Assembly (NCBI RefSeq): GCF_001613325.1
Contig: NZ_BDCD01000007.1
Coordinates: 124,001 to 188,000 of the forward strand
Length of the DNA stretch: 64,000 nt
Direction: 5' to 3'
Origin: Nocardia yamanashiensis NBRC 100130
Lineage (GTDB): Bacteria; Actinomycetota; Actinomycetes; Mycobacteriales; Mycobacteriaceae
Shown here: piece after piece, positions 1,888 through 50,029 of the stretch
Numbering within the stretch: position 1 is the first letter of the stretch
Layout: each line of letters begins with the position of its first letter
The notes under the pieces: generated by a model
What the model saw: only the letters and a program-made list of their open reading frames with translations
What the model was told of the DNA's origin: nothing
The model's database searches: none
Position numbers and translations under genes: made by a program

Positions 1888-3606
1888 TCAGAAGAGGAAA
1901 TACCGCTGCGCCATGGGCAATTCGCGTGCCGGCTCCTCCGCCCACACCTCGCCGTCGATACGCACCGTGAAAGTGTCGGGGTCGACCTCGATGCGGGGCA
2001 TGGCCTCGTTCCGGGGCAGATCGGCCTTGCCGCGCTTGCGGACGTTCGCGACCGGCACCAGCTTGCGGTTCACGCGCAGGCGCGAGGCCAGACCGTCCTC
2101 GATGGCGGCCTCGGACACGAAATGCAGGGAGGTCCCGGCCGCCACGACCGGGGACGCGCCGAACATGGGGCGCGGCAGCACCGGCTGCGGGGTCGGGATG
2201 GAGGCGTTGGCGTCGCCCATGGCGGCCCAGGCGATGGCGCCGCCCTTGATCACCGCGTGCGGGCGGACACCGAAGAACGCGGGCTCCCACAGCACCAGAT
2301 CGGCCAGCTTGCCGACCTCGACCGAACCGATCTCACCGTCGAGACCGTGCGTAACCGCCGGGCAGATGGTGTATTTCGCGACATAGCGCTGCACGCGATT
2401 GTTGTCTGCCGCGCCGTCGCCGGGCAGGGCGCCGCGGCGGCGCTTCATGACGTGCGCGGTCTGCCAGGTGCGCATGACCACTTCGCCGATGCGGCCCATG
2501 GCCTGCGCGTCACTGCCGATCATGGAGATGGCCCCGAGGTCGTGCAGCAGGTCCTCGGCGGCGATGGTCGAGGGCCGGATGCGGCTCTCGGCGAAGGCCA
2601 GATCCTCCGGGATCGACGGGCTCAGGTGATGGCACACCATGAGCATGTCCAAGTGCTCGTCGAGGGTGTTGACGGTGTGCGGCCGAGTCGGATTGGTGGA
2701 ACTGGGCATCACGTTCGCGTACGAGGCGACGGTGATGATGTCGGGCGCGTGCCCGCCGCCGGCGCCCTCGGTGTGATACGAGTGGATGGCCCGCCCGCGG
2801 ATCGCCGCGAGGGTGTCCTCCACGAACCCGGCCTCGTTCAAGGTGTCCGAGTGCAGGGCCACCTGCACGCCGGAGGCGTCGGCCACGGTGAGGCAGGCGT
2901 CGATGGCCGCCGGGGTGGTGCCCCAGTCCTCGTGCAGTTTGAAACCGCCCGCGCCGCCGCGCAATTGCTCCCACATGGCCTCGGCGCGCACCGTATTGCC
3001 CTTGCCGAGCAGCAGGATGTTCACCGGCCAGGAGTCGGTGGCCTCGAGCATGCGGCCCAGATGCCACGCGCCGGGCGTGACGGTGGTGGCCTTGGAACCC
3101 TCCGCGGGCCCGGTGCCGCCGCCGACCAGGGTGGTGATGCCGCCCGCCATGGCCTCGTCCAGGATCTGCGGGCAGATGAAGTGCACGTGGCAGTCGATGG
3201 CGCCCGCGGTGACGATGCGGCCGTTGCCCGCGATGATCTCGGTCGAGGGGCCGACCACCAGGTCCGGGTGCACCCCGGTCATGGTGTCGGGGTTGCCGGC
3301 CTTGCCGATGGCGCAGATGCGGCCGTCGCGAATGCCGATGTCGGCCTTGATGATTCCCCAGTAGTCGACGATCACCACACCGGTGATGACGGTGTCGGGA
3401 GTGCCCTCGGCCCGGGTGGCGCGCGCCTGACCCATGGATTCGCGCAGCACCTTGCCGCCGCCGAACACCGCCTCCTCACCGGCGAGTCCCGGTCCGCCGC
3501 TGCGGTCCTCGGTGATCTCGATGAGCAGATCGGTGTCGGCCAGCCGGATCCGGTCGCCGGTGGTGGGCCCGAAGAGCTCGGCGTATCGGGCGCGGGAGAG
3601 TTCCAT
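1888..3606 (-). CDS. ureC: Urease alpha subunit
   Basis: Full-length (572 aa) catalytic subunit of urease, which hydrolyses urea to ammonia and carbamate in the cytosol. The nickel ligands expected in the family are present: HVH at residues 140-142, the carbamylated lysine in GGFKLHEDW (K223), H252 in LHSDTLNE, H278 in SYHTEG and D366 in GSDAQ. The flexible-flap motif MVCHHLSP is at 323-330. The start codon shares one base with the ureB stop, so translation is coupled. Nothing in the protein looks degraded. The nickel chaperone genes ureF, ureG and ureD do not follow; a methyltransferase gene does. Confidence 0.98.
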
Positions 3607-4350: not shown

Positions 4351-4797
4351 TCAGCTCTGAGCAGCCAGATTCTGCAACCGGACCTGCCCGCGCGCCACCG
4401 TGCGGCCCTGCTCGTCGGTGATCACCACGACCCACAGCTGCTGCGAGCGGCCGCGATGAATCGGCGTCGCCTCCCCGCGCAGCACGCCCTCGCGCACCGA
4501 CCGCAGGAAGTCGGTGTTGTTGTTGACGCCCACCACGGTCCCGCGATTGCCGAACCAGCAGCTACCCGCCACGCTCGCCAGGGTCTCGATGACGGTGCAG
4601 TACACCCCGCCGTTCACGATCCCCGCCGGCTGGAACAACTGCGGCGTGACGACCCATTCACCGGCCACCTTGTCCGGCCCCATCTCGGTGAACTTCAACC
4701 CGATGAGATCGGTGAAAGTGCCCTCGCTGAACTGGTTCATCAGCTCGGGTGTCACGTCGGCCATCGACTTGATCGACGAGAAATCTTGATCTGCCAT
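4351..4797 (-). CDS. PaaI-type hotdog thioesterase (Rv1847-like)
   Basis: A 148-residue single-domain hotdog protein. The signature of the PaaI group is visible: QPAGIVNGGVYCTVIETLAS, in which the Asn-Gly-Gly turn and the Glu of the central helix are the usual catalytic region, followed by VGVNNNTDFLRSV and GEATPIHRGRSQQLWVV. It probably hydrolyses an acyl- or aryl-CoA ester, but the substrate is unknown. It is encoded just upstream of ureABC on the same strand and divergently from the candidate small RNA at 4919. The ATG at 4797 (MADQDF) was preferred to one three codons upstream. Confidence 0.85.
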   Translation of the reverse strand: MADQDFSSIKSMADVTPELMNQFSEGTFTDLIGLKFTEMGPDKVAGEWVVTPQLFQPAGIVNGGVYCTVIETLASVAGSCWFGNRGTVVGVNNNTDFLRSVREGVLRGEATPIHRGRSQQLWVVVITDEQGRTVARGQVRLQNLAAQS

Positions 4798-4883
4798 GAG
4801 ATCCACACTGGCACGCGCCCACGGCGCAAACGCGCCGGACCCCCTGCAACACGCGAGCCCCGCCCCCGATCCCGCCCGTACTA

Positions 4884-4912
4884 TTGCAAGTTAGGTAAGC
4901 CTGACCTATACT
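4884..4912 (+). promoter_or_regulatory. Near-consensus sigma-A promoter for the candidate small RNA
   Basis: TTGCAA at 4884-4889 and TATACT at 4907-4912 are separated by exactly 17 nt, so both elements are close to the housekeeping consensus. A start is expected near 4919. The spacer is filled by an IdeR-like site, so binding of the repressor would block RNA polymerase. Confidence 0.65.
4891..4909. promoter_or_regulatory. IdeR/DtxR iron box
   Basis: The 19-nt site beginning TTAGGTAAGCC matches the DtxR/IdeR consensus at about 15 of 19 positions and keeps its dyad. It sits between the -35 and -10 elements of the plus-strand promoter, the classic place for iron-dependent repression. Two further boxes of similar quality lie at 9268 and 9377. 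Confidence 0.7.
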
Positions 4913-4918
4913 AAATTC

Positions 4919-5011
4919 GGCGCTTGGATCGAGCGAGGCCCGGAGGGCTGCCGCGGCCTCGATCTCCTGCCGGGCGGTGGGTTCCCTGACTCAGTGGAAC
5001 CCACCGCCTTT
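4919..5011 (+). ncRNA. Candidate iron-responsive small RNA (MrsI-like)
   Basis: Seen: a strong promoter overlapped by an iron box, about 93 nt of sequence with no plausible reading frame, and a perfect 13-bp terminator hairpin. A first stem can form in two registers: CGAGGCC 4934-4940 with GGCCTCG 4955-4961, or GATCGAG 4927-4933 with CTCGATC 4958-4964. The linker 4962-4971 reads ATCTCCTGCC; its UCUCCU could pair with Shine-Dalgarno sequences. Known (from memory): in M. tuberculosis the iron-starvation sRNA MrsI (ncRv11846) is IdeR-regulated and lies beside Rv1847, whose homologue is the adjacent thioesterase gene. Inferred: this is its counterpart, induced at low iron to spare iron. The ends are estimates. 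Confidence 0.65.
4973..5011 (+). terminator. Rho-independent terminator of the candidate small RNA
   Basis: GGCGGTGGGTTCC (4973-4985) pairs perfectly with GGAACCCACCGCC (4996-5008) across a 10-nt loop and is followed by TTT. The 13-bp GC-rich stem is strong although the T-tract is short. It lies 52 nt before the K+ channel start, so it separates the two transcripts. Confidence 0.7.
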
Positions 5012-5062
5012 CACTATTCGCGCTCGGTTCGCGCCGGGCACAATCGATGAGACAATCACGGC

Positions 5063-6076
5063 GTGAACCCGATTCGCCGACTCAGCCGGGTTCTCGTGGC
5101 GTTCTTGCTCGTGATGGCGGTCGGGACCGAGGGGTATCGCCTGCTCGGGTTCGGGTATCTGGACGCGCTCTATCAGACCGTCACCACGATCACCACGGTC
5201 GGATTCCGCGAAGTACATCCGCTGAACGCGACCGGGCAGGTGTTCACCATGGCGCTCATCCTGTTCGGCGCCGGGACCGTCTTCTACATGTTCGGCGTCC
5301 TGCTCGAGGCGCTGATCGACGGCCACGTCCATCAACATTGGGAGCGACGCCGGATGAACAACCGGATACAGCGCATGCGCGGGCACGTCATCGTGTGCGG
5401 CTGGGGACGGGTCGGCCGTTCGACCGCGCAGTACCTGGCCGGGCTCGGCAAGGAGATCGTGGTCGTCGATCGCGACCCGCAACGGCTGGCCGAGCTCGAA
5501 TTCCCCGGTGTGCTGGGCGATGTCACCGATGACAGCGTGCTGGAGGCCGCCGGGATCCAGCACGCCGACGCGCTGATCGCCGCGCTCGACGGCGATGCCG
5601 ACAATGTCTATGTGACCCTGTCGAGCCGCGCCATCCGCGCCGATCTGGTGATCATCGCCAGGGCACGGACCGAAGGCTCGAAATCGAAACTGCTACGGGC
5701 GGGCGCGAATCGGGCGGTCAATCCGCAATTGATCGGCGGCCGGCGGATGGCGGCCTTCGCACTGCAACCCAATGTCGCGGAATTCCTCGATGTCGTCATG
5801 CACGACGAGACACTGGAATTCCGTATCGAGGAGATCGGCATCGGGTCCGGTTCGGCGGCGCCGGACCGCACCGTCGCCGATGCGGAGCTGCGGCGGACCA
5901 CCGGTGCGCTGGTACTGGCCCTGCGCACCGTCGACGGGCGCTTCATCGCGAATCCCAACGGGGACATCCGGTTACAGGCCGGCATGGTCCTGATCGCGCT
6001 CGGCACGCCGCCGCAGCTCGAGGCCCTGCGCGCCGCCGTGGCCGTCACACCTCGAAGTTCTCCTCGGCATCCTTGA
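5063..6076 (+). CDS. Two-TM potassium channel with TrkA-N (RCK) domain
   Basis: A 337-residue MthK/Kch-type channel. TM1 lies at about residues 8-26, a pore helix and filter follow (YQTVTTITTVGFREVHPL, about 37-54), and TM2 is at 58-84. The Rossmann fold of the RCK domain begins at HVIVCGWGRVGRST with the nucleotide-binding VVVDRD next, and a TrkA-C-like domain ends the protein. The filter reads TVGFRE rather than TVGYGD, a variant; ion selectivity is inferred. The GTG start gives the family N-terminus. The last 32 nt overlap the convergent gene at 6045. Confidence 0.85.
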   Translation: MNPIRRLSRVLVAFLLVMAVGTEGYRLLGFGYLDALYQTVTTITTVGFREVHPLNATGQVFTMALILFGAGTVFYMFGVLLEALIDGHVHQHWERRRMNNRIQRMRGHVIVCGWGRVGRSTAQYLAGLGKEIVVVDRDPQRLAELEFPGVLGDVTDDSVLEAAGIQHADALIAALDGDADNVYVTLSSRAIRADLVIIARARTEGSKSKLLRAGANRAVNPQLIGGRRMAAFALQPNVAEFLDVVMHDETLEFRIEEIGIGSGSAAPDRTVADAELRRTTGALVLALRTVDGRFIANPNGDIRLQAGMVLIALGTPPQLEALRAAVAVTPRSSPRHP

Positions 6077-8520: not shown

Positions 8521-9225
8521 TTACCTGAGGCAGGCCCGGCGCACCGGCAGGCCGCGATCGGCCAGGGCGGCCAGCATGTCCTGACCACGCTTGGCGCCCT
8601 GCGCCGAGGAGGTATTGGCCAGGGCCGGAACATAAGTCGCGGCGCCGACCACCGACTCCGCGACCAGCGACCAGAACCGGCGCGCGCCCAGGCCCGCGCA
8701 GCGACCCAGCGCTTCCTGGATCAGCACCAGGGCGGGTTCGCAGCGGGCGGCGAGCCAGACGTAGAGCGCGGCCTCGCACGGCAGGGCGACCACGCCGGGT
8801 TCGCCGGTGAGCAGGTCGCCGTCGATCACGCGAATCGTGGTGTCCGCCAGGCCGGCCCAATCGATGCCGCCGTCGTTGTCGGTGTGCAGCCAGAGGTTCT
8901 CCAGGCCCGGATCCCAGGCGCGGCCCTCGGAGACGACCATGGCCAGCACCCGGCCGACGACGGCGTGGATGAGCGCGGTGGCGACCACTTCGGCGGCGAT
9001 ATCGGCATTGCTCATCTCGGCGGCGTGCCGCCGGTACATCAACTCGATGCGTCCCTCACGTACGCCGTCGGCCAGCCGCCACCACCGGCGCTTGCCCTGT
9101 TCGGACATGGCCGCGACGGCATACACGCGGGGGTGCTCGGGTTGCAGTGCGCGCAGCCGGGTGCAGGCGCGGGCGAACGAGATCCTGGAATCGCGCGGCG
9201 GGCAAACGGTCACGGGTTCGGGCAC
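8521..9225 (-). CDS. FhuF-like ferric-siderophore reductase, [2Fe-2S] motif apparently lost
   Basis: A 234-residue soluble protein whose gene starts 43 nt from an iron box and is divergent from a siderophore importer. The helical body and the region around ARRFWSLVAESVVGAATYV recall actinobacterial FhuF proteins, which reduce iron from siderophores with a C-terminal CC-x10-C-x2-C cluster. Here the protein ends RRACLR and stops at 8521. Past the stop, 29 nt after the last TGC, an out-of-frame TGC begins CGPG where CGxC would be expected; one extra base would restore x10 spacing. The cluster therefore looks eroded. The family call is an inference from context and weak pattern matching. Confidence 0.45.
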   Translation of the reverse strand: MPEPVTVCPPRDSRISFARACTRLRALQPEHPRVYAVAAMSEQGKRRWWRLADGVREGRIELMYRRHAAEMSNADIAAEVVATALIHAVVGRVLAMVVSEGRAWDPGLENLWLHTDNDGGIDWAGLADTTIRVIDGDLLTGEPGVVALPCEAALYVWLAARCEPALVLIQEALGRCAGLGARRFWSLVAESVVGAATYVPALANTSSAQGAKRGQDMLAALADRGLPVRRACLR

Positions 9226-9267: not shown

Positions 9268-9286
9268 TAAGGTTAGGCTTACTTAT
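9268..9286. promoter_or_regulatory. IdeR/DtxR iron box upstream of the FhuF-like gene
   Basis: A 19-nt site containing AAGGTTAGGCTTACTTA matches the DtxR/IdeR consensus at about 15 of 19 positions. It is 43 nt from the FhuF-like start (minus strand) and 143 nt from the importer start, so it most likely controls the minus-strand gene. Confidence 0.7.
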
Positions 9287-9376: not shown

Positions 9377-9395
9377 CTAGGTTAGGCTTACCAGA
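9377..9395. promoter_or_regulatory. IdeR/DtxR iron box upstream of the siderophore importer
   Basis: The site contains TAGGTTAGGCTTACC, about 15 of 19 matches to the consensus, and ends 33 nt before the first permease gene. It predicts repression of the three-gene importer operon when iron is sufficient. Confidence 0.75.
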
Positions 9396-9428: not shown

Positions 9429-10466
9429 GTGCCAGCCGCCCTCACCCCCAGACGGCGACGTCTGATCGGACTCCTCGTATTGCTCGTGCTCCTGCTGGCC
9501 GCGGTCGCCGCCAGCATCGCGCTGGGGTCCCGGGCCATCCCGCTGAGCGGCGTGTACGACGCATTGACCTGCCCGGACGGGTGGCCGCTGACCTGTGCGG
9601 CGGACGGATCCACCGCGCAGATCGTGCGTGAATTGCGGCTGCCGCGAACCGGACTGGCGCTGGTGTGCGGGCTCGCGCTCGGCATGGCCGGGGCGCTCAT
9701 CCAGGGGTATACGCGAAACCCGTTGGCGGATGCGGGCCTACTGGGCATCAATGCCGGGGCGGCGTTCCTGGCGGCGCTGAGCATCCATCTGCTCGCGCTC
9801 ACCACGCCCGCGCAATACATCTGGTTCGCGTTCGCGGGCGCACTACTGGCGGGCGTCGCCGTCTTCGGCGTCTCGTCCGTCGGCGGCGGGAAGGCGAGCC
9901 CGCTCAGCCTGGTCCTCGCGGGCGCGGCGATCACCGCGTTCCTGCAGGCCATGACCAATATCGTGGTGCTGCTGGACGGTACCGCGCTCAATACTTACCG
10001 CTATTGGGTGGTCGGCGACGTGGCCGGGCACGACTCCTCGGTCTTCCAGCAGGTCCTGCCGTTCCTGATCATCGGCCTGCTGCTGGCGCTGGCCGCCGGG
10101 CCCGGACTGAACCTGCTGGGCCTCGGCGACGACGTGGCGCGCGGACTCGGCGTGAACATCGCCCGCAATCGCGCCCTGGGCCTGGCCGCCATCGTGCTGC
10201 TGGCCGGGGCCGCCACCGCCGCCGTCGGCCCGATCGCCTTCCTGGGCTTGATCGTTCCCCACCTGGCCCGCGCCTGGACCGGCCCCGACTACCGCTGGCT
10301 GCTCCCCTACTCCGGCTTGGTCGGCGCGATCACCCTGCTGGTCGCCGACACGCTCGGCCGCCTGATCGCCCGCCCCGGAGAACTGCAAGCCGGCGTCACC
10401 CTCGCCGCCATCGGCGCCCCCTTCTTCATCCTGCTGGTCCGCCGCCGGAAGCTGGTGAGCCTGTGA
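9429..10466 (+). CDS. FecCD-family iron-siderophore ABC permease, first subunit
   Basis: A 345-residue polytopic membrane protein with about nine or ten hydrophobic segments. The family blocks are present: RLPRTGLALVCGLALGMAGA and IQGYTRNPLADAGLLGINAG near residues 70-110, and GPIAFLGLIVPHLARAW near 275, the loop that couples to the ATPase. It forms one half of the translocation channel of a BtuCD-type importer. Translation of the next permease starts at GTG 10463, overlapping this stop by 4 nt. An iron box lies immediately upstream. GTG is the start codon. Confidence 0.95.
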   Translation: MPAALTPRRRRLIGLLVLLVLLLAAVAASIALGSRAIPLSGVYDALTCPDGWPLTCAADGSTAQIVRELRLPRTGLALVCGLALGMAGALIQGYTRNPLADAGLLGINAGAAFLAALSIHLLALTTPAQYIWFAFAGALLAGVAVFGVSSVGGGKASPLSLVLAGAAITAFLQAMTNIVVLLDGTALNTYRYWVVGDVAGHDSSVFQQVLPFLIIGLLLALAAGPGLNLLGLGDDVARGLGVNIARNRALGLAAIVLLAGAATAAVGPIAFLGLIVPHLARAWTGPDYRWLLPYSGLVGAITLLVADTLGRLIARPGELQAGVTLAAIGAPFFILLVRRRKLVSL

Positions 10467-49722: not shown

Positions 49723-49914
49723 TCCCCCTCTGTCCTTTGCGCCTGAGAGATTCGGACTCAGCCGGTGGCCGTGGTCCTTTCACCATGGGCGGATGGCTCG
49801 GGGGCCATCGCTTTCCAGAGGCGTCGAAACTCCGCACGGTCCCTTGTGCCTGAGAGATTGACGGGGAGGTGCTGCTCCTTCGGCGTCCGAGGATTTCCCG
49901 GAACTCTCCCGCAC
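49723..49914 (-). promoter_or_regulatory. Tandem glycine riboswitch
   Basis: Two glycine aptamers in series on the minus strand: aptamer 1 from GCGGGAGAGTTCC through AATCTCTCAGGCAC and AAGGGACC, aptamer 2 ending CCGAATCTCTCAGGCGCAAAG then GACAGAGG. They lie about 55 nt before the gcvP start, so glycine should switch on gcvP expression, as in other bacteria with this element. Confidence 0.93.
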
Positions 49915-50029
49915 GGCTGCGACGCAACCCCAAGTCTAAAGGGGCCCAAGTTACGGCAATGTTGCCTGGGTTCTGTTTCACACCGGCAGGCCGGGAAATT
50001 CATGATCGGCTTCGGGCGCGCCCACTCGG

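Follow-up and report, generated by a model that had tools for sequence, protein, structure and literature searches.

The closest described counterpart of the element reported here is MrsI (ncRv11846), a small RNA of M. tuberculosis and M. smegmatis. The part of PMC8628891 that deals with its locus places MrsI between blaI and rv1847, at 2096766-2096867 on the + strand. Passages of PMC11188477 and PMC12101431 describe MrsI as ~100 nt long and ascribe to it an IdeR site, a terminator that is predicted, an apical loop of 7 nt and a seed of 6 nt. They report that it represses bfrA through this seed, with direct binding described. In an excerpt of PMC7029489, MrsI is given as ncRv11846Ac with the descending coordinates 2096839-2096768, which imply the other strand, as against the + strand of PMC8628891. 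According to the relevant passage of PMC9410917, RyhB, PrrF, FsrA and IsrR have no synteny or sequence in common with MrsI. Among the literature matches listed, judged by title or abstract opening and covering few subscription papers, we found no paper on MrsI outside mycobacteria.

We analysed a stretch of 64,000 nt from Nocardia yamanashiensis NBRC 100130, referred to below as the window. An earlier note, made from the letters of the window, had proposed an IdeR-box small RNA beside a homologue of Rv1847, as a counterpart of MrsI outside mycobacteria. Conservation, covariation, gene order and anatomy bear this proposal out. With a probability of roughly 0.83, we read positions 4919-5011 as the gene of a trans-acting small RNA, an MrsI orthologue that is predicted to be repressed by IdeR and to bind mRNAs by its loop AGGGCUG. 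The features of the locus are collected in Table 1.

Table 1. Features at the small RNA locus, in positions of the window.
Feature	Position	Strand	Basis or remark
Hotdog thioesterase, Rv1847 homologue, divergent neighbour	4351..4806	-	PF03061; best solved structure Rv1847
-35 element TTGCAA	4884..4889	+	Read from sequence
IdeR-like iron box TTAGGTAAGCCTGACCTAT	4891..4909	+	Between promoter elements, overlaps -10; 2 mismatches to the consensus used
-10 element TATACT	4907..4912	+	Read from sequence
Predicted small RNA, ~93 nt, MrsI orthologue	4919..5011	+	Conservation and covariation; ends predicted
Hairpin presenting the loop	4934..4961	+	Stem with compensatory changes
Apical heptaloop AGGGCUG, predicted seed (core GGGCUG)	4944..4950	+	Conservation; complementary sites in MQGDP/MRGDP-type bfrA leaders
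Terminator hairpin	4973..5008	+	13 perfect pairs, arms 4973-4985 / 4996-5008, 10-nt loop
TrkA-type potassium channel gene	5063..6076	+	3' of terminator, outside small RNA unit

The sigma-A promoter enclosing an IdeR-like site, as described in the earlier note, was present, its elements spaced by 17 nt and read from the sequence. The promoter predicts a transcription start at 4918/4919. The perfect 13-bp terminator hairpin, which the note had placed about 60 nt past the start, was likewise found, beginning 54 nt past it; the U-run behind the hairpin is weak (UUUCACUAUU). Boxes were scored against TTAGGTWAGSCTWACCTAA, taken as the IdeR consensus. At up to three mismatches to this consensus, the 64-kb window contained 3 boxes and 100 shuffles contained 0. 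Elsewhere in the window, an IdeR-like box at 9377-9395 precedes a siderophore-type ABC permease gene (9429-10466, +).

The 99-nt strand 4919-5017 had a predicted fold of -59.7 kcal/mol (z -4.98), and an equally good fold occurred in 0/200 shuffles. The loop-bearing stem pairs 4934-4943 with 4951-4961, with one bulge. The adjacent thioesterase proved to be the counterpart of Rv1847, as the earlier note had proposed: its top solved structure was 'Putative esterase Rv1847/MT1895' (E 3.5e-41). No Rfam family reached its gathering score at the small RNA region, and the sub-gathering matches there (mir-6790, Acido-1 and others) were set aside as chance-like. Two other parts of the window gave Rfam matches: 3155-3447 (+), antisense to the urease alpha gene, to RF02514 (5_ureB_sRNA, 62.1 bits), which possibly reflects coding conservation only, and 49827-49921 (-), a glycine riboswitch (RF00504, 63.3 bits).

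The nearest relatives of the window thioesterase were from named Nocardia, that of N. inohanensis being 94% identical. The 161-bp region gave a BLAST match (E<=1e-3) in 138/148 Nocardia genomes, its own included, a count that is approximate both ways: the covariance model finds G012, missed by BLAST, and in G091 it places the RNA elsewhere than the weak BLAST match. An iron-box promoter followed within 140 nt by the loop AGGGCUG was present at 77 of the 80 named Nocardia thioesterase loci, and TTG stood immediately 5' of the box in all 77. The three named loci without a box match were L014, where the RNA falls just beyond the flank taken and is present on a G126 contig of equal length, L024, where the sequence stops 114 nt short of the gene, and L075.

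From 107 loci selected for AGGGCTG near the box we drew 86 distinct transcripts, leaving out L037, which has a G run where the terminator should be. Alignment A1 comprised 70 of the 86; the 16 omitted were near-duplicates and L057, L066 and L087, which have odd lengths or terminator ends. Its structure contained 25 pairs, with 98.8% of cells paired and both-side changes at 15 pairs, and for each of five measures the real alignment was matched by 0/500 shuffles. In the terminator, 11/14 pairs showed both-side changes across the 70 Nocardia rows. The invariant columns include GAGGGCUGC, made up of the loop AGGGCUG and the G-C pair that closes it; although loci had been selected for AGGGCTG before alignment, this step removed no named locus that had a box match (77 in all). 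The pair beneath the closing pair was CG in 55 rows, GC in 9, UA in 5 and AU in 1, and was broken in none. Because this stem pair varies unbroken while the loop is fixed, selection acts on pairing in the stem but on sequence in the loop.

The covariance search across relatives that the earlier note had suggested extended these results beyond Nocardia. Model R1 had matches in 217/301 genomes of the GTDB family, representing 20/31 genera. A looser search of 27 handles added two genera by weaker matches: g28 (L171, E 0.011, thioesterase adjoining) and g8 (L176 and L177, E 0.18-0.26, both with box and loop, and L177 adjoining a thioesterase and ureA as well). No match was found in nine genera (g3, g4, g5, g12, g14, g15, g18, g25 and g31), of which g15 was sampled by one genome only, of 66% completeness. 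The weak matches L172, L174, L175 and L178-L181 were discarded as having no loop, box (scores 8-10) or thioesterase. In an order-wide search with model R3 and stricter filters, 45/298 genomes matched, and 45/45 belonged to this family.

Alignment A2 contained 44 rows from 22 genera, including 12 Nocardia rows, the window's among them; L173 (E 0.015), which has box, loop and thioesterase, was kept outside because its genus already had three rows. GGGCUG was present in 44/44 rows and 22 genera, although L176 and L177 had been retained because of box and loop, so that their conserved loop reflects how they were chosen; GAGGGCUGC was present in 43/44. The sole aligned row with an altered loop base (GUGGGCUGC) was L162 1501-1595, of genus g13. 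Overall, 90.5% of A2 was paired and 24/29 pairs had both-side changes (0/500 shuffles); in the terminator, such changes occurred at 14/14 pairs. The pair beneath the closing pair took all four Watson-Crick forms (UA 32, CG 8, AU 2, GC 2) and none was broken.

Among the cross-genus loci L142-L171, GGGCUG was found in 30/30 and GAGGGCUGC in 29/30. Boxes scoring at least 14/19 were found in 28/30 of these loci (L149 reached 12, and L158 reached 9 over the 60 nt displayed), against a background of 2.9% in 20,000 stretches of 82 nt drawn at random from these loci without removing the true boxes. A thioesterase homologue accompanied the RNA in 28/30. In L151 and L160, which have no thioesterase homologue within the stretch, the RNA was accompanied instead by a homologue of an orphan protein of the window. 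This 234-aa protein (8521-9225, -) has no Pfam or NCBIfam match, an IdeR-like box at 9268-9286 lies upstream of its gene, and many other genera encode homologues of it (42-60% identity) upstream of the small RNA. It looks like an iron-controlled orphan family and the neighbour that the RNA had ancestrally.

In L147 and L152, the gene order was a blaI-like gene (reverse), the small RNA and the thioesterase. The L147 blaI was named from NCBIfam CopY/BlaI matches below threshold and that of L152 by its likeness to L147's. The top solved structure for these thioesterases was Rv1847. This order is that of the published MrsI interval and therefore counts for identity with MrsI.

The earlier note had looked for the seed in the linker UCUCCU between two stems, which would cover Shine-Dalgarno sequences. 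This sequence (4963-4968) is wholly paired in the minimum-energy fold and occurs in 2/86 Nocardia transcripts, from L003 and from the window; these two are also its only occurrences among the 44 cross-genus rows. The linker was therefore rejected as seed. What is both conserved and unpaired is the apical loop AGGGCUG, the predicted seed.

We searched for bacterioferritin genes by TIGR00754, which was positive in 19/36 genomes. CAGCCC, the complement of the loop, was present in 7/7 leaders of MQGDP/MRGDP-type bfrA outside Nocardia (L184-L190; four from g11, two from g29 and one from g20), where base shuffles of the same leaders gave 0.01-0.13 expected per leader. It occurred twice in 5/7 of these leaders, and the octamer CAGCCCUC, which pairs with GAGGGCUG, occurred in 6/7. 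The sites begin 27-78 nt upstream of the start codon, a position that does not agree with a seed covering the Shine-Dalgarno sequence. The L186 protein aligned over its full length with the bacterioferritins 3uof and 3bkn, which we take to be those of M. tuberculosis and M. smegmatis. A third bfr type (L201, L202) had CAGCCC in 2/2 leaders. By contrast, the MRGDDE type had it in 1/9 leaders, with the Nocardia one (L195) among those without, though these genomes carry the RNA. The loop and the best-known target thus fit each other in MQGDP/MRGDP-type leaders, with an internal contrast.

The situation in Nocardia was different. Bacterioferritin was absent from the window's genome, according to TIGR00754 and a further bfr search, and with no bfr gene the genome offered no bfrA seed site in the same organism as the window RNA. 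By Pfam PF00210 it has a BfrB-like ferritin and a Dps, both named by likeness. A bfr match was absent in 92/148 Nocardia genomes. In the remaining 56, the bfr leaders contained CAGCCC in 4 cases against 5.4 expected, which is no excess, and CAGCCC was absent from the leaders of three Nocardia proteins starting MQGDP (L307, L308 and L318). These three leaders, together with the strand conflict between the MrsI papers, slightly lowered our confidence. It follows that the targets in Nocardia must differ from bfrA, and that the RNA and its seed either outlived the bfrA target there or never had it.

Scans for other sites did not single out a target. Tandem CAGCCCY gave 21 matches in the window's own genome against 57 for the reversed-pattern control, and none lay in a clear leader by the filter used; in follow-up, four frames were examined by Pfam and one of these was read further. 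The pattern CAGCCCUC followed by AGG and ATG gave 11, 9 and 10 matches in three Nocardia genomes against 3, 2 and 5 for the reversed control, with five of the ten matches in G134 deriving from one repeat, and no evident iron-gene target among them. In G134, the ATG of a 104-codon frame is shortly preceded by six or more CAGCCCT units arranged head to tail (L230, G134:C1:4432053-4432109), every one of which is complementary to the loop.

The surroundings of the RNA bear on whether it acts in trans. Its strand is that of the thioesterase in 69/77 named Nocardia loci and in 28/28 thioesterase-bearing cross-genus loci, and in 45/77 it lies at most 400 nt upstream on that strand, as might an iron-controlled leader or attenuator acting in cis on the neighbouring thioesterase-urease genes. 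However, it lies farther than 400 nt away in 24/77 and on the opposite strand in 8/77, as in the window, where it is directed away from the thioesterase; its sequence and structure are conserved nevertheless. Moreover, the aligned rows terminate in a strong covarying hairpin, and the fixed part is a hairpin loop, for which an attenuator has no need. G129 has a second copy of the small RNA at a distance of 17 kb, among other neighbours and equipped with an iron box of its own (L224 1584-1715, -); the frame beside this copy is TetR-like, by eye only. The varied place and strand and the second copy speak for a free-standing, trans-acting RNA, and a cis-acting role seems highly improbable to us. 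A coding or dual-function RNA with a very small protein is hardly credible. The earlier note had seen no reading frame; in the window this did not strictly hold, as a mechanical 21-codon TTG..TGA frame, beginning ~5 nt from the 5' end, can be read by eye through the transcript. The substance of the claim stood: a closed frame is lacking in 65/86 Nocardia transcripts, and the longest frame in the whole set has 22 codons. Moreover, the distance between stem and loop does not preserve the frame (54/19/13 by remainder), and the substitutions are accounted for by base pairing.

It is also conceivable that the fixed loop of an iron-regulated RNA binds a protein, such as a chaperone or RNA-binding regulator, and not mRNA. 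A protein site would be just as likely to combine a constant loop with a covarying stem, and neither the bfr leaders nor the tandem sites of Nocardia showed an excess of mRNA sites. We nonetheless regard protein binding as unlikely, since the loop is complementary to the leaders of bfrA, the reported direct target of MrsI, with two sites in most of them. The reading as an mRNA-binding, MrsI-like RNA is therefore retained.

We infer that the small RNA is transcribed, controlled by IdeR and active by pairing, in the following manner. Iron-loaded IdeR would repress at the box and, as iron falls, would leave it. Sigma-A polymerase would then make an RNA of ~93 nt ending at the terminator hairpin, and this RNA would use its apical loop to base-pair with CAGCCC(U) in the leaders of mRNAs. 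Such pairing would lower the translation or stability of these mRNAs, sparing iron.

We lean, by a little, towards a broader reading in which MrsI is an ancient iron-starvation RNA of the whole family, present in at least 22/31 genera with the frozen seed GGGCUG. On this account, bfrA or its site was lost in Nocardia while the seed stayed fixed, so that the RNA must there serve other, probably older, CAGCCC-bearing mRNAs. Nocardia would thus be a natural example of a small RNA whose seed persisted although its best-known target disappeared, and the family as a whole would offer a comparative test bed, in which one seed occurs both alongside bfrA and in its absence. Target predictions can be tested family-wide by the rule 'CAGCCC(U) in the leader'. 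What was one characterised mycobacterial small RNA becomes an RNA family, absent from Rfam, whose structure, seed and distribution are defined.

Compared with known systems, the window RNA most resembles MrsI. Each adjoins Rv1847 or its homologue. MrsI has an IdeR box in its promoter and so does the window RNA, where an IdeR-like box is predicted, and the window RNA matches the anatomy given for MrsI in the passages cited, from the 7-nt apical loop and 6-nt seed to the length of ~100 nt and predicted 3' terminator. The same covariance model also picked up loci with the MrsI order of blaI, RNA and Rv1847. MrsI itself is flanked by blaI and Rv1847 and shares the strand of Rv1847, whereas the window RNA is divergent from the thioesterase, with a potassium channel gene next to it and no blaI; this differing position is a shift of place only. 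The target of MrsI is bfrA, whereas the window's genome has no bacterioferritin gene. Since a bfrA site is a property of the target, we file the window RNA as an orthologue of the MrsI RNA and not of its regulon. The 5' end of the window RNA, CGGCG pairing with UGCCG, is a Nocardia feature that is not kept in other genera. Based on gene order, the described anatomy and complementarity to bfrA leaders, the MrsI reading holds: the window RNA is likely the Nocardia orthologue of MrsI, identified by place and anatomy and not by a sequence match to the published RNA. RyhB of enterobacteria, PrrF of Pseudomonas, FsrA of Bacillus and IsrR of Staphylococcus are alike in their working, each a low-iron RNA under an iron repressor that spares iron by silencing proteins that use it, as is predicted here; in contrast to those systems, the box of the window RNA is IdeR-like and not a Fur box.
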